64,000 bases of DNA from Ciceribacter sp. L1K22 (lineage in GTDB: Bacteria; Pseudomonadota; Alphaproteobacteria; Rhizobiales; Rhizobiaceae): the NCBI RefSeq assembly GCF_017599385.1, contig NZ_JAGFPK010000001.1:994177-1058176 (forward strand), given 5' to 3'. Position 1 is the first letter of the stretch. Every line of letters starts with the position of its first letter. Both the position numbers and the translations under genes were made by a program. Below, in pieces: positions 17,031-29,176 of the stretch. The notes under the pieces are model-generated. The model did not search any database. It had not been told where the DNA came from and saw only the letters and a list, made by a program, of their open reading frames with translations.

Positions 17031-17282
17031 ATGAACAAGCCAGTTCAGGTCACCATCGCAGAACCTTACGACAGCTTCATCGACGCCCAGCTCGAAAGCG
17101 GGCGCTTCAGTTCGCCCGAAGAGGTGGTCGAGGCCGGCCTCCGTCTTCTGAAGGAGGAAGAGGCCCGTGTGGAATGGCTGCGCAACGCCCTGATCGAGGG
17201 GGAGAATAGCGGGCCATCCGTGCCCTTCGAGCCCGAAGACCTTATGGCATCGGTTCGCGAGAGATGGAAGAACCGTGGCTGA
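17031..17282 (+). CDS. parD: ParD-like antitoxin of a type II toxin-antitoxin pair
   Basis: An 83-residue protein with an N-terminal ribbon-helix-helix DNA-binding region (PVQVTIAEPYDSFIDAQLESGRF, then EEVVEAGLRLLKEEE near residues 29-45) and a C-terminal tail expected to wrap the toxin. This is the standard ParD layout. It should repress its own promoter and neutralise the ParE-like toxin encoded downstream, whose start overlaps this gene by 8 bp. The pair lies between glyS and the DUF523 gene. Confidence 0.85.
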   Translation: MNKPVQVTIAEPYDSFIDAQLESGRFSSPEEVVEAGLRLLKEEEARVEWLRNALIEGENSGPSVPFEPEDLMASVRERWKNRG

Positions 17283-17574
17283 GGTTCGACTCAGTCCTGC
17301 TGCGCGTCAGGACTTTCTCGACATCGGCGACTACACCCGTGATCGTTGGTCCGAGATACAGGCCGAGCGGTACCTGAGGCAAATTCTGAGCATGATTGCC
17401 GAAATTGGGGCGCATCCGTTCTCTGGTGGCGAGGTGACATCCTTGAGAACAGGCTATCGTCGTCGTCGTTGCTGCTCGCATCTTATCTTCTATGTCATTC
17501 AGGAAGACGGCATGGTCGAAGTCCTTCGCATACTTCACGAAAGAGCCGATACGTTGCACCAACTGGACGACTAA
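17275..17574 (+). CDS. parE: ParE/RelE-family toxin
   Basis: A 99-residue protein read from a GTG start at 17275 inside the end of the antitoxin gene. It has the RelE/ParE fold signature: VRLSPAARQDFLDIGDYTRDRW at residues 4-25, a central basic strand (RTGYRRRRCCSHLIFYVIQ) and the C-terminal VEVLRILHERAD. ParE toxins block DNA gyrase, whereas RelE relatives cleave mRNA; adjacency to a ParD-type antitoxin favours ParE. The double Cys in RRCCSHL replaces the more common RxxRxGxHRI pattern, so the activity should be checked. Confidence 0.85.
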   Translation: MAEVRLSPAARQDFLDIGDYTRDRWSEIQAERYLRQILSMIAEIGAHPFSGGEVTSLRTGYRRRRCCSHLIFYVIQEDGMVEVLRILHERADTLHQLDD

Positions 17575-17578
17575 TCTC

Positions 17579-18076
17579 ATGCCCGCCAACATCCTCATCA
17601 GCGCCTGCCTTCTCGGCCGTCCCGTTCGCTATGACGGCAAGGGCAAGCCTCTGTCGCATCCCGCCATCGAGCGTTGGTCGGCGGAGGGAAGGCTGGTCGG
17701 CTTCTGTCCCGAGCAGGCCGGCGGCCTGCCGACTCCGCGTCCGCCCGCCGAGATCGAGAACGGCATGACGGGTGAGGATGTCCTCACGGGACGGGCGCGC
17801 GTGATTGAGATCACGGGCGGTGACGTGACGGCACAGTTCATCGCCGGCGGCAACAAGGCGGTGGCATATGCCCTGGAGCGGGGGTGTCGCTACGCTCTGT
17901 TGATCGACGGTAGTCCGTCCTGTGGCTCAGGATTCATCTATGACGGCTCGTTTTCTGGCGCGCGCCATGAGGGCCAGGGCGTGACGGTGTCGCTTCTTCG
18001 CCGCGCCGGCATCATAGTCTTCTCCGATCGCGAGATCGACGGGCTTGTCGCACGGATCGATACCGCCGGCGAATAA
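17579..18076 (+). CDS. DUF523 protein, TudS-like thiouracil desulfidase
   Basis: A 165-residue DUF523 protein starting 4 bp after the toxin gene. Three cysteines expected to hold a [4Fe-4S] cluster are present: ISACLLG (near residue 9), GFCPEQ (near residue 41) and the diagnostic SPSCGSGFIYDGSFSG (near residue 115). Members of DUF523 have been described as TudS, which removes sulfur from 2-thiouracil. Whether this protein does so is inference from the motif set. It may be co-transcribed with parDE. A 34-bp palindrome controlling the divergently purposed acu genes begins 14 bp after its stop. Confidence 0.8.
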   Translation: MPANILISACLLGRPVRYDGKGKPLSHPAIERWSAEGRLVGFCPEQAGGLPTPRPPAEIENGMTGEDVLTGRARVIEITGGDVTAQFIAGGNKAVAYALERGCRYALLIDGSPSCGSGFIYDGSFSGARHEGQGVTVSLLRRAGIIVFSDREIDGLVARIDTAGE

Positions 18077-18090
18077 ACTGATGCCGTCCC

Positions 18091-18124
18091 TTTATTTATT
18101 AGACTGAGTGGTCTAATAAATAAA
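18091..18124 (+). promoter_or_regulatory. Candidate AcuR operator: perfect 14-bp inverted repeat
   Basis: Arms TTTATTTATTAGAC and GTCTAATAAATAAA are exact reverse complements around the 6-base spacer TGAGTG, an AT-rich island in a GC-rich region. The right arm ends one base before the acuR ATG. TAATAA (18114-18119) is placed like a -10 box, with TTTATT (18091-18096) 17 bp upstream as a weak -35. That would start transcription at about the ATG, with no room for a ribosome site. TetR-family repressors bind such palindromes. The use of this one by AcuR is inferred from position. Confidence 0.7.
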
Positions 18125-18125
18125 C

Positions 18126-18782
18126 ATGATACTGATCGAGCAGGCAAACAAGGTGGAGGCTGGTGGCGACCAGCCGCGTAAGCGCGGCCGGCCGCCGCGT
18201 GACATTGTCGATGCCGAAGTTCGAAGGCGACTTGTCCGGTCCGGCCTGATTTTCCTGACGGAGAGGGGTTATTCCCCCGTTGGCCTCGATGAAATCCTGC
18301 GTCATGCCGGCGTGCCCAAGGGCGGCTTCTACCACTACTTTTCCAGCAAGGCCGATTTCGGCCGCGTGCTGATCGCAGCCTATCATGCCTATTTCGCCGA
18401 GAAACTGGACCGCTGGTTTCTCGATGAAAGCCTGTCGCCGCTCTCGCGCCTGCGGGCCTTCGTCGCCGATGCAGAGCAGGGCATGGCGCGCCACGATTTT
18501 CGCCGCGGCTGCCTGATCGGTAATCTTGGCCAGGAGATGGGTGCGCTACCCGAGGAGTTTCGCGACTTGTTGGTCTCCGCCCTCGATGGTTGGCAATCCC
18601 GCACCGCTCGATGCCTTCGCACCGCGCAGGCGGAAGGCGAGATCGCCAGTCGACACGATCCCAACGCGCTTGCTGCATTCTTCTGGATCGGCTGGGAGGG
18701 AGCGGTGCTACGCGCCAAGCTGGAACGCCGCGCTGATCCACTGTCGGCTTTTGCCGACGGCTTCTTCGCCATGCTCACCTGA
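18126..18782 (+). CDS. acuR: TetR-family repressor AcuR
   Basis: A 218-residue TetR regulator. The N-terminal arm is basic (PRKRGRPPRD), followed by the helix-turn-helix LTERGYSPVGLDEILRHAGVPKGGFYHYF near residues 44-72. The ligand domain contains GMARHDFRRGCLIGNLGQEMGALPEEFR (near residues 118-145), a stretch I recognise from AcuR of Rhodobacter sphaeroides, where it represses acuR-acuI-dddL and responds to acrylate. Gene order is identical here. The ATG directly follows a perfect inverted repeat, and no Shine-Dalgarno is visible, consistent with a leaderless message as reported for the Rhodobacter operon. Binding and inducer are inferred by homology. Confidence 0.9.
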   Translation: MILIEQANKVEAGGDQPRKRGRPPRDIVDAEVRRRLVRSGLIFLTERGYSPVGLDEILRHAGVPKGGFYHYFSSKADFGRVLIAAYHAYFAEKLDRWFLDESLSPLSRLRAFVADAEQGMARHDFRRGCLIGNLGQEMGALPEEFRDLLVSALDGWQSRTARCLRTAQAEGEIASRHDPNALAAFFWIGWEGAVLRAKLERRADPLSAFADGFFAMLT

Positions 18783-18797
18783 ACACGGGAGGTTCTG

Positions 18798-19790
18798 ATG
18801 TTCGATGCAATCCTGATCGAGAAGACCCAAGCGGGCCAGACGGTTCGCCTCACGTCCATGGATACGGCGCAACTGCCCGCCGGTGATGTGCTGGTCGAGG
18901 TCGCCTGGTCGACGCTGAACTACAAGGACGCCCTGGCCATGACCGGTGCCTCGCCGGTCGTACGCAGCTTCCCTATGGTGCCGGGTGTCGATCTGTCGGG
19001 GACTGTCCTTGAAAGCGACAATCCCGCCTTCAATCCGGGCGACCGGGTCGTGCTGAATGGCTGGGGCGTCGGCGAAAAACACTGGGGCGGCCTTGCCGGC
19101 CGCGCGCGCCTCGACGGAGACTGGCTGGTGCCGCTGCCGGAAGGCATCACCCTGCGCCAGGCCATGGCGATCGGCACGGCCGGCTACACCGCGATGCTTT
19201 GCGTGATGGCCCTCGAAAAGCACGGCGTCACCCCGGAAAGCGGCGAAGTGGTGGTGACCGGCGCCGCCGGAGGCGTCGGCAGTGTCGCTGTGGCCTTGCT
19301 GGCGAAACTCGGTTACGACGTCGCGGCCGTGACCGGACGTCTGGATGAATCCGACTACCTGACCAGCCTCGGCGCCCGGACCATTGTCGACAGGGCGGAA
19401 CTGTCCCAGCCGGGGCGGCCACTGGCCAAGGAACGTTGGGCGGGCGGCATCGATGTCGCCGGTGGCGTCGTCCTCGCCAATGTTCTTGCTGCCACCCGTT
19501 ATCGCGGTACGGTTGCCGCCTGCGGCCTCGCCGGTGGTATGGACCTGCCGACGACGGTCGCACCGTTCATCCTGCGGGGCGTCACGCTTGCCGGTGTTGA
19601 TAGCGTCATGTGCCCAAAGCCGGACCGCATCGCCGCCTGGCAGCGCCTGGCCAAGGATCTGGATTTCGACAAGCTTGATGCGATGACCACGGAATTGCCG
19701 CTGGCCGACGTCATCGCTCGTACGCCGGATTTCCTCCAAGGCAAGGTACGCGGCCGCGTCATCGTGCCCATCAATCCCGCGCTCAGATGA
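18798..19790 (+). CDS. acuI: Acryloyl-CoA reductase (NADPH), AcuI
   Basis: A 330-residue zinc-independent medium-chain dehydrogenase/reductase of the YhdH/AcuI type. It reduces acryloyl-CoA to propionyl-CoA, removing the toxic product of DMSP cleavage. The N-terminal [13 protein letters not shown] segment is near residue 39, the family region [18 protein letters not shown] near residue 85, and the nucleotide-binding loop [21 protein letters not shown] near residue 153. No structural zinc cysteines are seen. It starts 15 bp after acuR with GGGAGG as ribosome site and is followed by the DMSP lyase gene, so it is the middle gene of the operon. Confidence 0.92.
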
Positions 19791-19844
19791 AGGCTGCCTG
19801 CCTCATTCCGGCATTGCCAACCCCGTAGACGGATCTTCGCGCCG

Positions 19845-20504
19845 ATGACACGCCGCCTTTCCGACATGCCGAATTGGACCTACCTGCTCCAGGAGTTCGA
19901 GGCGCTCTATCGCTTCGGTTCCGCGGGGGGCAGCAAGGCGATCCGCAGCCATCGCAAGCGCGTGCGCGAAATCCTCGCCGGCATCATCGACGCGGACCCG
20001 CCGCTTCTTGATCGGGAGCCGGCGTCGAAACCGGTGGTCGCGCATTTCGGGCGCGCCATCGATCTGGGCAAGCGTAGTGTGATGGCCAATTTCAGCCGGG
20101 CGCTGGAGCGGTTGCAGGAAGAACTGACCTGGGAATATGGCTACGTGCGGGTGCCGAAGACGCTCGAACGCAAATACGCCTATTGCGAAGTTCTCGGACC
20201 AAAGGGGCCCGTCAAGTCGGATGCGCTTATTCTCGGCTTCGTACTCTTCGCTCCGAACACCACCTATCCGCAACACAGTCACAAGGGTATCGAGGAGAGC
20301 TACCTTTCGATCGCCGGTGCCTGGTCGGAAAACGATGCTGCCGTCTACGCGCCGGGTTCGCTGATCCTCAACAAGGCCGAGCAAGAGCACCGGATCACGA
20401 TCGGAGAAACCGAGCCCTGCCTGCTGGCCTATGCCTGGGTCGGTCCAAGCGAGCGCCTGGCATCGCCCGGCATGACGTTCTCTGCGACCCGCAAGCCGAA
20501 GTGA
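19845..20504 (+). CDS. dddL: DMSP lyase DddL (cupin)
   Basis: A 219-residue cupin enzyme splitting dimethylsulfoniopropionate into dimethyl sulfide and acrylate. The N-terminal helical part (WTYLLQEFEALYRFGSAGG) and the mid segment TWEYGYVRVPKTLERKYAY are characteristic of DddL. The metal site is visible as His144, His146, Glu150 and Tyr153 in PQHSHKGIEESY plus His182 in QEHRIT. Length matches known DddL (~220-235). It lies 54 bp after acuI, and a strong terminator follows, closing an acuR-acuI-dddL unit like that of Rhodobacter sphaeroides. No DMSP transporter or later acrylate genes are adjacent. Confidence 0.9.
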   Translation: MTRRLSDMPNWTYLLQEFEALYRFGSAGGSKAIRSHRKRVREILAGIIDADPPLLDREPASKPVVAHFGRAIDLGKRSVMANFSRALERLQEELTWEYGYVRVPKTLERKYAYCEVLGPKGPVKSDALILGFVLFAPNTTYPQHSHKGIEESYLSIAGAWSENDAAVYAPGSLILNKAEQEHRITIGETEPCLLAYAWVGPSERLASPGMTFSATRKPK

Positions 20505-20528
20505 GGAAAGACAGCGCCCGAACATAAA

Positions 20529-20558
20529 AAGACCGCCGGAATTGCTCCCGGCGGTCTT
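20529..20558. terminator. Bidirectional terminator between dddL and a chemoreceptor gene
   Basis: Perfect 11-bp arms AAGACCGCCGG/CCGGCGGTCTT with an 8-base loop. It is preceded by AAAAA, so it can serve the convergent minus-strand chemoreceptor gene as well as dddL. Confidence 0.8.
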
Positions 20559-20577
20559 CGGCGGTGGATGCCTTTAA

Positions 20578-22410
20578 TCAGCCGGCTCGACGCATCTGCT
20601 GGGCTGTGTTGTTGAGGTTACTGGCGGACGAGCCGGAGACCTTGAAGCTGCGGATGAGGCTCAGCAGGTCGCCAGTGTCGTTGGCAAGCACTTCCGCCGA
20701 AGCCGTGGTCTCTTCGGCCATGGCGGCGTTCTGTTGGGTCGCCTGGTCGAGTTGGTTCATCGACGACGAGATCGAGCGCAGAGTCGTGTCCTGTTCCTGG
20801 GCGCTGTGCGAGATCTTCGAGACGATGTCGTTGGCGCTCGCGATCTGATCGGAGATCCGTTTCAGCGCCTCGCCGGCTTCGCCGACCAGTTGCACACCCT
20901 GTTCGACCTGCTGCGAGGACCGGGCGATCTGATCCTTGATCTCCTTTGCTGCGGCGGCGGACCGCTGGGCGAGTTCCCGCACTTCCTGGGCTACGACGGC
21001 GAAACCCTTGCCGCTTTCCCCAGCGCGAGCAGCCTCGACACCGGCGTTCAATGCCAGCAGGTTGGTCTGGAAGGCGATTTCGTCAATCACGCCGATGATC
21101 TTGGTGATCTCGGCGGAGGACTGCTCGATGCCGCTCATTGCGCTGATGGCGCGGCTGACGATCTCGTCGCTCTGGCGCGCCTCGGCGCTGACCGAGCCGA
21201 CGCGGGTGGCCGCGTCGCGGGCGCCATCTGCCGTCTGGCGTACAGCGACAGTCAGCTCGTCCAGCGCGGCAGAGGTCTCTTCGAGATTGGCCGCCTGGCG
21301 CTCGGTACGGCTCGCAAGCTCGCCGGATGCGCGCCGGATTTCTTCCTTGGAGACGGCGATGTCATTGCCCTTGAGGTTGACGCGGGCCATCGCTTCTTCA
21401 AGACGGGCAAGGGCGTCGTTGAAGTTATCGCGCAGCGCCGCATATTTCGGTCCTAGGTCGGCACAGCGAACGGTCAGGTCGCCGTCCGCGAGCTTTTCAA
21501 GCGACTGGCCGATGGTTGAAACCACGTGCGCCTGCTGGCGAGCTTCGGCGAGCTGCGCCTCGGCATTCTGGCTACGCTCGCTGTCGAGCTCGCGCTTTTG
21601 TTCTTCCTGGCGGGCAGCCATGGCATGGCGTTCGCGTACTTTTTCCTGCAGCGACCGCGTTGCCTTGGCCATCATGCCCACTTCATTGCCCATCTCCGTG
21701 TGCGGGATGGCGATTGTCACGTTCTCGTCCGCGACCGCTTCTAGCGACCTGTGGATCGCGGCGAGAGGAACCGTAATCCCGCGAATGACGTACCAAGCGG
21801 CGGCGGCGAGCAGCAGCATGACAAAAAAACCGATACCTGAGGCTTTCAGGATCATATTGCGAATCTGGGCCTGGAGGTCGTCGACGTAGACACCGGTGGC
21901 CAGAACGATGCCCCAAGGCTCGAATGCTTTTGCGTAGGAACTTTTGAGATAGTTGCCCTCGGGCTGACCCGGCTTGACGGTGCTGTAATAGTCGACAATG
22001 CCACCGCCCGCTTTACCCACGCTCACCATTTCGTCCCGGTACATATGCCCGGTCTGATCGGGCTTGCCCTTGCCGCTTTCTCCGACCTTGCTAGCAACGG
22101 GATGGATGCGCATCACCACGTCGTAGTCGTATGCGAAGACATAGCCATCGGGATTGTACCGTATGGTCGATACCGCCCGATACGCCTGTTCCTTCGCCTC
22201 TTCAGTGGTCAGCTCGCCCGCCTTTTCGCGATCATGGTAGGACTGCATGATGGAGAGTGCGGATTCCACTTGCGTCCGAAGCATCGCATAACGCTCGGCA
22301 TAGATCGAATCGGTCGCCATCTGGATCTGGTAGTAAATCAGACCGGCTGTGGCGACGACCATGCCTATGACCAGCAGGAAGAGCTGGCGGGAAATCTTCA
22401 AGTTTTTCAT
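20578..22410 (-). CDS. Methyl-accepting chemotaxis protein with single Cache domain (copy A)
   Basis: A 610-residue chemoreceptor. An N-terminal transmembrane helix (residues 9-28), a periplasmic single-Cache sensor ([19 protein letters not shown] near residue 85, [25 protein letters not shown] near residues 155-180), a second transmembrane helix near residues 190-210, HAMP, and a cytoplasmic signalling domain with the hairpin tip [37 protein letters not shown]. It ends QQMRRAG with no WxxF tether. The start is ATG 22410. It is a tandem paralogue of the next receptor (equal length, nearly identical cytoplasmic half). The ligand is unknown; sCache domains often bind small organic acids. Confidence 0.93.
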
Positions 22411-22725
22411 TGGTCGGCCTCGGAAGGGAGTAAGACGAAGAGCTGGCGACGTCCAATCATTTGACGTTTGCCAAAATTGCATGGGCTCCGGGCCGTCATT
22501 GCCTCGTGCACGATCCATTCAGAAGAACATTACCGCGCAATAGGTAATAAAACGATAAAATTGTCTGTAATCCGCCTGATGTTGGTCGTAGACGTGATCG
22601 TTGTGGGTTGCTTTCACTAAACGTTCAGCGTGTCGATACTTGGCGCACGTATTGATCGCCAAGCGCCAAGGAAAGAGGCCGCCGGAGAGTTCGTCCGGCG
22701 GCCTTCTGGCGGTAAATACGTGTAA
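22411..22725. other. 315-bp intergenic region between tandem receptor genes
   Basis: The region holds the minus-strand upstream region of receptor copy A and the terminator of copy B (listed separately). No further open frame, tRNA or repeat is seen. An AT-rich part near 22530-22570 is the likely promoter zone of copy A, but I cannot assign a -10/-35 pair with confidence. Confidence 0.5.
22677..22703 (-). terminator. Rho-independent terminator of chemoreceptor copy B
   Basis: Ten-bp perfect stem GGCCGCCGGA/TCCGGCGGCC with a 7-base loop. On the minus strand the hairpin is followed by TCTTTCC. It lies 23 bp after the stop codon of the receptor gene ending at 22726. Confidence 0.75.
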
Positions 22726-25414: not shown

Positions 25415-26686
25415 TCAGGCTTTTTCGCGCTCAATCGCCCGCCAGCCGATATCGCGGCGGCAAAAGCCGTTCTCCCAGGAGACGCTGTCCACGAGGGCGT
25501 ATGCTTGTCGTTGCGCTTCGGCGACGGTCGGTGCGAGTGCAGTTGCGTTGAGGACCCGGCCGCCGGTGGCAACGAGCTTGCCGTCTTTCAACGCTGTCCC
25601 GGCATGGAACACCTTGGCACCGTCAGTCTCGGTGGGGATAGCGTTGATCGCCGTATTCTTGTCGTAGGAACCGGGATAGCCGCGCGAGGCCAGCACAACC
25701 GTCAACGCCGGTTGATCATGCCATTCGGCGCGCACCTTATCGAGTGTACCGGTGGCGCAGGCGTAGAGGATCGGCAGCAGGTCGCTCTTCAGCCGCATCA
25801 TCAGCACCTGGCATTCCGGGTCTCCGAACCGGACATTGTATTCGATCAGCTCCGGCCCTTTTTCTGTGATCATCAGGCCGGCGAAAAAGACGCCCGAGAA
25901 GGGGTGACCCATTTCCGCCATACCGTGCATCGTCGGTGCTATGATCTCCCGCATGGTCCGGTCCACCATCTCCGGCGTCATCACCGGTGCAGGAGAATAG
26001 GCGCCCATGCCACCGGTGTTGGGTCCGGTATCGCCATCGCCGACCCGTTTGTGGTCCTGCGCGGCGGCAAGTGGCAGCAGCGTCTTGCCATCGCAAAGGC
26101 AAAAGAAGCTTGCCTCCTCGCCATCGAGAAAGGCCTCGACCACGACCTCGGCGCCGGCGGCACCGAACGCACCCTCGAAGCAATCGTCGATCGCCGCGAG
26201 CGCCTCGTCGATTGTCATGGCGACCGTCACACCCTTGCCGGCGGCGAGGCCATCCGCCTTGATCACGATAGGCGCACCCTGCTGGCGCACATAGGCCTTT
26301 GCCTTCGGCGCGTTGTTGAAGCGCTGGTAAGCGCCGGTCGGAATGTTGAAGCGGGCGCAGATATCCTTGGTGAAGCCCTTCGAGCCTTCGAGCAGGGCTG
26401 CGGCAGCGGAGGGACCGAACACGGCGATGCCTTCGCCACGCAGAACATCAGCCAGGCCTGCAACAAGCGGTGCTTCCGGGCCGACGACAACGAAGTCGAT
26501 CGAGCGTTCCCTACAGAAGGAGACGACAGCGGCGTGATCATCCACATCGACCGAAACAAGTTCGGCGTGCTCTGCGATTCCGGGATTGCCGGGTGCGGCG
26601 AAGAGCGTCGTCAGGAGGGGCGACTGGGCGATCTTCCAGGCCAGCGCATGCTCGCGTCCGCCAGAACCGATCAACAGTACCTTCAT
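25415..26686 (-). CDS. purD: Phosphoribosylamine--glycine ligase
   Basis: A 423-residue ATP-grasp enzyme for the second step of purine synthesis (phosphoribosylamine plus glycine to GAR). Features include the N-terminal [12 protein letters not shown] loop, [12 protein letters not shown] near residue 74, [13 protein letters not shown] near residue 142 for ATP binding, and [12 protein letters not shown] near residue 225, with metal-binding [10 protein letters not shown] near residue 284. Length equals the family norm. It is transcribed away from the tex gene, with a 174-bp intergenic region between them. Confidence 0.97.
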
Positions 26687-26860
26687 TGCCAGATCTCCGC
26701 TTGCCTTGATAGCCGGCGGTTAAGGGGGGACGGTGGAAAGGTCAAGGAAAAAGCCGCCGCCGCCCTGGTCGCTTTCCTGTGGAATCGTTGCCTGCGCCGT
26801 TGCCTTGCCGTTTTCGCGAACTACAGTCCGCCCACACTTTGCGAAGGAACCCCACGCCTC

Positions 26861-29176
26861 ATGGCTGACGACATCAAGTCCATTTCCGGAATAATCGCTG
26901 CGGAGATCAAGGCGCGGCCAGAACAGGTGACCGCCGCGATCGGCCTTCTCGATGAGGGCGCGACCGTGCCCTTCATCGCGCGCTACCGAAAGGAAGTGAC
27001 CGGCGGTCTCGATGATACCCAGCTTCGCGATCTGGCCGAGCGGTTGACCTATCTTCGCGAGCTCAATGCCCGCCGCAAGTCGATCTTCGAGTCGATCACC
27101 TCGCAGGGCAAGATGACCGACGAACTGGCCGTGAAGATCGCGGGAGCCGTGACCAAGGCGGAGCTGGAAGACCTCTATCTCCCCTACAAGCCGAAACGCC
27201 GGACCAAGGCCGAAATCGCCCGCGAACGCGGCCTTGGCCCGTTGGCGGAGGCGATCCTGACCGACCGCATGGTCGATCCGGCAAAACTAGCCGAAGCCTA
27301 TGTGGCCGGGGAAGTGACGGATGTGAAAGCGGCGCTGGAGGGTGCCCGCGACATCGTCGCCGAGCAGATCTCGGAAAATGCCGACCTGCTCGGACGCCTG
27401 CGCCAGGACATGCGTGATCGCGCGATCCTCTACTCGAAGGTCGTGGATGGGAAAGCCGAAGCCGGAGAAAAATTCGCCGACTATTTCGATCATTCCGAAC
27501 GCTGGGCGACCGTTCCGGGTCATCGTGCGCTTGCCATGCTGCGTGGCTGGAACGAGGAGATGCTGACGCTGTCGATCGAGATGGATCGTGACGACGTATC
27601 GCCCGTCAAGCCTGCGCAGCGCACCATCGCTGCGGCGCTCGACATCCGCGAACGCGGCCCCGCAGACAAGTGGCTTATGGATGTCGCAGGATGGACGTGG
27701 CGCGTAAAGCTTTCGATGTCGCTGTCGCTCGACCTAATGCGGGAACTGCGTGAGCGGGCCGAAGAGGAAGCTATTCATGTCTTCGCCCGCAATCTCAAGG
27801 ATCTTCTGCTGGCCGCTCCCGCCGGTTCGCGTCCCACGATGGGGCTTGATCCCGGTATCCGCACCGGCGTGAAAGTCGCGGTCGTCGACGGCACCGGCAA
27901 GGTGGTCGAAACCACGACGGTTTATCCGTTCCCGCCGAAGAACGACGTGCGCGGCACCCAGGTCGAACTTGCCTCAATGATCCGCAAGCACAAGGTCGAA
28001 CTGATCGCGATCGGCAACGGCACTGGCAGCCGCGAAACGGAAAAACTGGTTGCCGACATGCTGTCGCAGTTTCCGTCGACGCAGCCGAAGCCGACCAAGG
28101 TCATTGTGTCCGAGGCGGGCGCCTCCGTCTACTCGGCCTCCGAGCTTGCAGCAAAGGAATTCCCGGGACTCGATGTTTCTCTGCGCGGTGCCGTCTCGAT
28201 CGCCCGCCGGCTGCAGGACCCTCTCGCCGAGCTCGTGAAGATCGAGCCCAAGTCGATTGGCGTCGGCCAGTACCAGCACGATGTCGACCAGGGTAAACTC
28301 GGCCGCTCGCTCGACGCCGTGGTGGAAGATGCGGTGAACGCCGTTGGAGTCGACCTCAACACGGCTTCGGTGCCGTTGTTGTCGCGTGTATCCGGTTTGT
28401 CGAACTCGATTGCAGAGGCGATCGTTTCGCACCGGGACGTCACCGGTGCGTTCGAAAGCCGCAAGGATCTCCTGAAGGTCGCGCGTCTCGGTGCCCGCAC
28501 CTTCGAACAGTGCGCCGGCTTCCTGCGCATCCCGAACGGCAAGGAGCCACTTGATGCATCCTCCGTGCACCCGGAAGCCTATGACGTTGCCAAGCGCATC
28601 GTCGCAGCCTGCGGCCGTGACCTTCGCTCATTGATGGGGGATAGCGCAGCACTCAAGAAGCTGGATCCCCGCCAGTTCATCGACGAACGGTTCGGATTGC
28701 CGACGGTGAAGGATATTCTTTCGGAACTGGAAAAGCCAGGCCGCGATCCACGCCCGTCATTCAAGACCGCGACTTTTGCCGAAGGCGTAGACGAGATCAC
28801 CGATCTCAAACCCGGCATGACGTTGGAAGGGACGGTGACCAACGTGGCCGCCTTCGGCGCTTTCGTTGATATCGGTGTGCATCAGGACGGCCTCGTGCAT
28901 GTCTCGCAACTCGCAGACCGGTTTGTGAAAGACCCGCACGAGGTAGTGAAGGCGGGCGATGTCGTGAAGGTGCGCGTCGTCGAGGTAGACGTGAAGCGCA
29001 AGCGCATTGCCCTGTCGATGCGTAAGGACGGGGGCGAAGCACCGCCTCCTTCGATGCGCGAAAACCGGGGCCCTTCCGCTGGGCGGCAGGCACCGGGGCG
29101 TGCACCCTCTCGACCCGAGCAGAATGCCGTCGGTGGTCTTGGCGCGGCTCTCATGGATGCGCTTCGCAAGAAATGA
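26861..29176 (+). CDS. tex: RNA-binding transcription accessory protein Tex
   Basis: A 771-residue Tex protein. The N-terminal helical domain holds [17 protein letters not shown] near residue 36, the central YqgF-like RNase-H fold begins at [20 protein letters not shown] near residue 327, a helix-hairpin-helix pair near residues 485-560 includes [16 protein letters not shown], and the S1 RNA-binding domain is at residues ~650-720 ([28 protein letters not shown]). Length fits the family. Tex binds nucleic acid and affects transcription and stress traits in several bacteria. The start is ATG 26861 (MADDIKS); the much longer upstream frame is read through the antisense of purD. Confidence 0.95.

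Follow-up and report, generated by a model that had tools for sequence, protein, structure and literature searches.

Dimethylsulfoniopropionate (DMSP) cleavage is a main source of dimethyl sulfide (DMS). One operon type, acuR-acuI-dddL, has been known since 2011 (PMC3017554). In Rhodobacter sphaeroides, the AcuR operator reads TAATAGAC/n6/GTCTATTA, its mutation results in constitutive expression, and the acuR transcript begins at the acuR AUG, i.e. it is leaderless (PMC3017554). A 2012 paper describes dddL as largely confined to Rhodobacterales and Rhizobiales, acuI-dddL linkage as known only in R. sphaeroides strains, and three named dddD-bearing Rhizobiaceae strains as lacking acuI (PMC3338564). 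DddL in Rhizobiales is, as such, not new by that account. Here, we analyze a window (the whole stretch of 64,000 nucleotides) from Ciceribacter sp. L1K22 (contig NZ_JAGFPK010000001.1, positions 994,177 to 1,058,176) that carries a complete acuR-acuI-dddL operon. What is new, judging from the sequence, is the whole operon with its putative operator in a member of the Rhizobiaceae, at one address where presence, decay and absence are all found within a genus. A search of the literature on DddL in Rhizobiaceae and Rhizobiales, mostly of titles, found none on an acuR-acuI-dddL operon in Rhizobiaceae.

The open reading frames (ORFs) of acuR, acuI and dddL are all intact, lie on one strand, stand 15 and 54 bases apart and follow one another as in the R. 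sphaeroides operon (Table 1). An earlier, sequence-only reading of this DNA had named the three genes in this order, and the assignments hold. Those of AcuR and AcuI rest on NCBIfam equivalog models, both above cut-off. Among solved structures, AcuI matches 3nx4 (putative oxidoreductase, 381 bits) and 1o89 (YhdH, 374 bits), as well as the AcuI structures 5gxe (370 bits; 369.8 before rounding) and 5gxf (369 bits). AcuR matches the TetR regulator 3bru (262 bits), in which GMARHGFRRGC aligns with GMARHDFRRGC of the window protein, the region from which the AcuR type had been proposed. By eye, a ribosome site GGGAGG is present upstream of acuI. In the cupin, the PF16867 match spans residues 39-194, while the NCBIfam scan of this protein returns no DddL match and two weak ChrR-like matches far under cut-off.

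The predicted active site of the window DddL comprises Y141, H144, H146, E151, Y153 and H182. These residues pair in an alignment with Y120, H123, H125, E129, Y131 and H163 of DddQ, a weak structure match of the cupin (25 bits; 5jso and 4la2), for which the roles of the active-site residues, including E129 as a metal ligand, have been described (PMC4437653). Y141, H144, H146, E151 and Y153 are identical in 59 of 59 DddL rows and H182 in 57, and all six are present in the DddL of the window and of three genomes of its genus (G022, G060 and G066). The earlier list of active-site residues is therefore right for His144, His146, Tyr153 and His182 and wrong for the metal-binding Glu150: the metal ligand is E151, because it pairs with DddQ E129 and is invariant, whereas position 150 is Glu in 47 of the 59 rows. 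The two rows without the metal-binding His182 have Arg in Amorphus coralli (L055:6001-6642) and Thr in an uncultured Rhodobacteraceae (L058:6001-6651), and these two proteins may be inactive or differently active.

We find that the window DddL is 50-72% identical to DddL at 36 named genome loci, mostly of Rhodobacterales. Directly upstream of dddL, acuR-acuI is found at 6 of these (L027, L040, L046, L056, L057 and L061), and three others (L026, L050 and L053) have less than 1.3 kb of upstream sequence and are uninformative on this point. The six operon-bearing loci are, from their genus names, presumably all Rhodobacterales; since they too carry the operon, the arrangement is wider than was known in 2012. 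L061 (Rhodobacter kunshanensis), with the same operon order, has a DddL only 50% identical to that of the window and on a very long branch, and an AcuI that is 75% identical. In the DddL tree, built from 57 rows and rebuilt with 55 after dropping the long rows L061 and L175 (both times without the partial rows L059 and L060 and the duplicates L064 and L158), the cupin falls in the main DddL group, nearest to DddL of G060 from the same genus (support 97/92), and not among unrelated cupins, as the sequence-only reading had proposed to check. Plasmid spread was considered as an explanation and set aside, as only 3 of 72,556 plasmid records match dddL; one match covers over 98% of the query, is annotated as DddL and is 66% identical.

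Directly upstream of acuR lies a perfect inverted repeat with arms of 14 nt (18091-18104 and 18111-18124, 100% match), which encloses a putative AcuR operator core that resembles the proven R. sphaeroides operator and stands seven bases before the acuR ATG. The earlier reading does not mention this element. The core is found once in the window, with 0.01 matches expected by chance, and besides this exact site the whole genome has no site within 3 mismatches. A reversed control pattern has two near-matches (up to 3 mismatches) on each strand, so the significance of the operator lies in its exactness only. Of the 11 acuR-acuI(-dddL) loci scored, 10 have, at the same seven-base distance from the ATG, a repeat that matches in 11 or more of its 16 letters (the window, L027, L040, L046, L056, L057 and L099-L102; 5 to 8 of 8 arm letters complementary), the remaining locus, L061, having no matching repeat at acuR. 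Among five more distant Rhizobiaceae acuR-acuI pairs, L177 and L178 have a fully complementary repeat at the same spacing from the ATG, in L179 and L180 the right arm is kept and the left one is imperfect, and L176 has no repeat. By eye, and by analogy with the R. sphaeroides boxes TTGATT and TATTAT (PMC3017554), a putative promoter overlaps the palindrome. No Shine-Dalgarno sequence is seen by eye upstream of the acuR ATG. Because the operator stands seven bases before the ATG and no ribosome site is evident, the leaderless design has probably been kept at acuR.

Taken together with the R. sphaeroides work, these features suggest how the operon would operate. DddL, a metal-dependent cupin, would split DMSP into DMS and acrylate, and AcuI would act downstream of acrylate as an acryloyl-CoA reductase; both activities are likely by this analogy. 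AcuR would bind the palindrome overlapping the promoter, most likely as a repressor that acrylate releases, so that the operon would be induced by its own product, and a transcript starting at the acuR AUG would keep AcuR scarce. Elsewhere in the genome there is one full-length PrpE-like ligase (696 bits), which scores higher with propionate than with acetate models and is separate from AcsA, and one BCCT transporter, which passes the general BCCT model and has a glycine-betaine carrier as its best model. These two are candidates for acrylate activation and DMSP uptake, respectively, and such roles remain guesses because both proteins score under the cut-offs of their specific models.

The operon sits in a slot between a DUF523 gene and a chemoreceptor gene, and throughout the genus the genes are arranged as glyS - DUF523 - chemoreceptor. 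We read the slot in the 59 of 63 genomes of the genus that have DUF523 (the window and 58 loci). It holds acuR-acuI-dddL in three (the window genome, G000, together with G022 and G060), acuR-acuI with a dddL remnant in one (G062), and no operon in 55, which answers the search for this island in related genomes that the earlier reading had proposed. Among the 55, the far border is unseen in four, i.e. G021, G067 and G078, which meet a contig end, and G068, which is without the chemoreceptor gene; none of these four has AcuR anywhere in the genome. The gap in empty slots is 52-586 bp (49 measured, apart from the values for L121 and L124, which are artefacts of frame choice), and is at most 90 bp in 39. 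The slot is no general insertion hotspot, because none of the 49 measured gaps holds other large cargo. The window operon is positioned between the DUF523 stop and a terminator that the earlier reading had noted. The terminator exists, but this kind of hairpin is a feature of the site, since 48 of the 55 operon-free slots also have CCGCCGG or CCGTCGG, the type seen in the window. We infer that it also serves the operon.

At E <= 1e-40, DddL is found in 21 of 397 genomes across the order, own genome counted, and at E <= 1e-20 in 4 of the 63 in the genus. AcuR is found in 5 of these 63 (E <= 1e-40) and, over the family, in 8 of 394 genomes (E <= 1e-50). The 7 further AcuR matches of the family have no slot gene within about 1.5 kb, which sets aside the same slot in other Rhizobiaceae genera; 5 of these 7 genomes have a neighbouring acuR-acuI pair, with no dddL in the about 490 bp examined after acuI. 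Within the genus, G066 has an empty slot and an operon copy elsewhere (L102:6463-8871), adjoining a glucose-6-phosphate dehydrogenase cluster and the gene of a major-facilitator transporter. The DddL of this copy shares 79% identity with a Roseivivax DddL and pairs with Pararhizobium mangrovi in the tree (97/78), and its acuR-acuI pair with Pararhodobacter (85/82). The G066 copy thus looks like a separate arrival. A scan of ten neighbouring genes finds no mobile-element family, and one of the ten has no family at all.

The four occupied genomes do not stand together in a quick tree of flanking proteins from the 59 genomes, in which all markers are linked to the slot, and a single clade of the four is rejected by the approximately unbiased test (p-AU 3e-47). 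Parsimony on this tree gives 4 changes for the operon, and a single gain would require 14 losses. This is no single-gene artefact, since one clade is also rejected in quick trees of GlyS alone (57 genomes, p 5e-4) and of the right-hand gene alone (38 genomes with three of the four occupied, p 2e-5). In the tree of acuR and acuI, the window pairs with G022 (99/98) and G060 with G062 (100/99), and the flank tree likewise has the first pair in one half and the second in the other. In the best acuR and acuI tree, both pairs group with two pairs from distant Rhizobiaceae. This tree does not show the four as a clade of their own, yet such a clade is not rejected (p 0.378). AcuI identity is 84% between the window and G022, 90% between G060 and G062, and 79-80% for the other four pairs, which parallels the divergence of DUF523 (75-78%, with 88% for G060-G062) and GlyS (86-88%, with 94% for G060-G062). 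The slot-sharing genomes are 58-69% identical to the window in dddL vs 71-84% in acuR and acuI. The dddL tree is noisier; after the window and G060 it joins, with weak support, DddL of another Rhizobiaceae genus and G022. Neither a dddL clade of the three (p 0.41) nor a grouping of the window with G022 (p 0.42) is rejected.

Decay of the lyase gene is visible in G062, where a stretch of about 200 bp downstream of acuI can still be aligned to the beginning of the G060 dddL, at a score of 148, which is reached by none of 200 shuffled controls (mean 47, largest 60). The same stretch scores 88 against the window dddL (0/200 shuffles) and 64.5 against that of G022 (7/200). From this alignment, G062 once had a lyase gene that has now decayed. 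A terminator CGCCCGGG after the operon is common to G060 and G062 (L100 and L101) and is found in none of the 55 operon-free slots. In a comparison of flank ends among 35 of the 59 genomes, picked by hand, the nearest DUF523 end and the nearest chemoreceptor end of each occupied genome belong to an empty genome, and the ranks of other occupied genomes span 3rd to 33rd of 34. Among occupied genomes, G060 and G062 come nearest to each other on the left (3rd and 5th), and the window and G022 do so on the right (3rd and 8th). Hitch-hiking of the flanks in a recent exchange is disfavoured by these nearest empty ends, and at most a weak link of this kind may exist.

How the operon came to be distributed in this way can be weighed from the above. 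The sequence-only reading had proposed transfer into, or retention by, a rhizobial lineage; of these, a recent transfer private to this genome is unlikely, given that three relatives share the slot for their acuR-acuI and that two of the three also have dddL there. We favour old residence with loss and exchange because of the flank-matching acuR-acuI pairs, the shared CGCCCGGG and the lack of remnants. The operon would be an old resident of one slot, lost many times and partly exchanged, with dddL lost before acuR-acuI in G062, a reading for and against which our judgement is about evenly balanced. Its fuller version is put forward tentatively: a single-address module that would have entered the genus early, been deleted cleanly to the shared terminator in most lineages, been restored now and then by exchange, and that would decay in a set order, with the lyase going first and acrylate detoxification last. 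Several results weigh against this history: the rejected clade of four (p 3e-47), the lack of operon remnants in all 55 slots without the operon, the joining of the window dddL with that of G060 rather than G022, and the shared CGCCCGGG, a hint that the G060-G062 pair reflects exchange rather than descent. Purely vertical descent from the genus ancestor, with loss in every empty lineage, would account for the way AcuI identities track those of the flanks, the empty genomes nearest to each occupied flank and the decay seen directly in G062, but it needs the 14 losses on the flank tree, leaves empty slots without remnants and a G060/G062 terminator found in no operon-free slot, and we consider it rather unlikely. 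Several arrivals from outside, e.g. from Rhodobacterales, each into the same slot, would fit the scatter of occupied genomes with its 4 changes and rejected clade, as well as the separately placed G066 copy with its Roseivivax- and Pararhodobacter-like genes. Against such arrivals, the slot is no general hotspot, acuR-acuI form two supported pairs with a clade of all four unrejected, and the window lacks a tRNA gene, as the slot borders lack a pair of direct repeats (no search was aimed at integrases), making this origin improbable.

Function is open to a different doubt, i.e. that DddL has drifted to another substrate, with acuR-acuI serving acrylate or another enoyl-CoA from a different source. 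Such drift would fit acuR-acuI without intact dddL in G062 and five other Rhizobiaceae genomes, the lower identity of dddL than of acuR and acuI among slot-sharing genomes, and the ability of known DMSP lyases to cleave DMSOP as well (PMC10686828). However, the six DddQ-equivalent residues and the AcuR-type operator are kept, and according to the same source DMSP is preferred over DMSOP by those DddL enzymes that have been assayed, so that drift appears very improbable. A cloned dddL yields DMS from DMSP in Escherichia coli (PMC10686828). An acrylate-controlled operon for DMSP cleavage is, from families, residues and operator, very likely what the window encodes, and the conversion of DMSP to DMS and acrylate proposed earlier is supported as likely. 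The following points count against this functional reading. The structural match of the cupin is weak, and no DddL equivalog or structure was found for comparison; a consensus promoter scan finds no promoter at acuR; the PrpE-like ligase reaches 696 of the 827 bits of its curated cut-off, and the BCCT protein 477 of 650 for the glycine-betaine model. As for regulation, AcuR activates acuI in Halomonas D47 (PMC13104084), DMS production was not inducible by acrylate in four other strains with dddL according to a 2011 report, and a related Burkholderia regulator is described as unresponsive to acrylate (PMC3017554). By analogy with R. sphaeroides, repression by AcuR and control by acrylate are most likely, and a leaderless start is likely.

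The host family is, by inference from GlyS identities, Rhizobiaceae, in line with the rhizobial background noted earlier. The window GlyS is 83-93% identical over matched stretches to five genomes of its genus. Outside the genus, its best stretches reach 74% identity in G380, another member of the family, and 71% in Pararhizobium mangrovi, which also belongs to the Rhizobiaceae, compared with 63% in Amorphus and 52% in the two genomes that carry L031 and L046. Two other ORFs of the window are recorded here. A small ORF (17031-17282) between glyS and DUF523 has matches in relatives of up to 89% identity, and we take it to have the look of a ParD-type antitoxin. In a second ORF (25505-29176, 1223 residues), Tex domains are confined to residues 459-1173, and in many relatives the first and second halves are matched separately. 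The ORF may have been called too long, or it may be a fusion.

Table 1. Features of the operon and its slot, in window coordinates.
Feature	Position	Strand	Evidence or remark
DUF523 gene (2-thiouracil desulfurase family), left slot border	17492..18076	+	Pfam PF04463, 136.6 bits
Putative AcuR operator	18091..18124		Core TATTAGAC-N6-GTCTAATA at 18097-18118, inside perfect 14+14 inverted repeat
Putative promoter	18091..18119	+	TTTATT (18091-18096), 17-bp spacer, TAATAA (18114-18119); by eye, by analogy
acuR, AcuR-type TetR-family regulator (acrylate-responsive type)	18126..18782	+	NCBIfam NF051457, 289.6 bits (cut-off 247)
acuI, NADPH-dependent acryloyl-CoA reductase	18798..19790	+	NCBIfam NF051456, 546.2 bits (cut-off 440)
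dddL, cupin DMSP lyase	19845..20504	+	Pfam DMSP_lyase PF16867, 137.5 bits (cut-off 27)
Terminator between operon and converging chemoreceptor gene	20528..20559		Terminator scan reports - strand
Chemoreceptor gene, right slot border	20578..22518	-	Neighbour in nearly all relatives with fully seen slot; missing in G068

Presence, decay and absence at one address make the gain and loss of a DMSP trait open to study in close relatives with known slots. Compared with described systems, the window operon is most readily set beside that of R. sphaeroides 2.4.1, with which it shares the gene order, the families, an 8-N6-8 operator at the promoter and the lack of an evident acuR Shine-Dalgarno sequence; this likeness is drawn from gene order, family models and operator. 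The two differ in the operator arm (TATTAGAC in the window vs TAATAGAC), in the host, which in the window is one of the Rhizobiaceae, and in position, as the window operon, unlike that of R. sphaeroides, sits before the terminator of its slot. DddL at the 36 loci shares the active-site residues, except H182 in two, at the 50-72% identity given above, and differs in that acuR-acuI lies directly upstream in only 6 of 36. DddQ (5jso and 4la2), by contrast, is a distant relative (25 bits) and a separate lyase family, which has in common with the window protein that it is a cupin lyase with six paired active-site residues.

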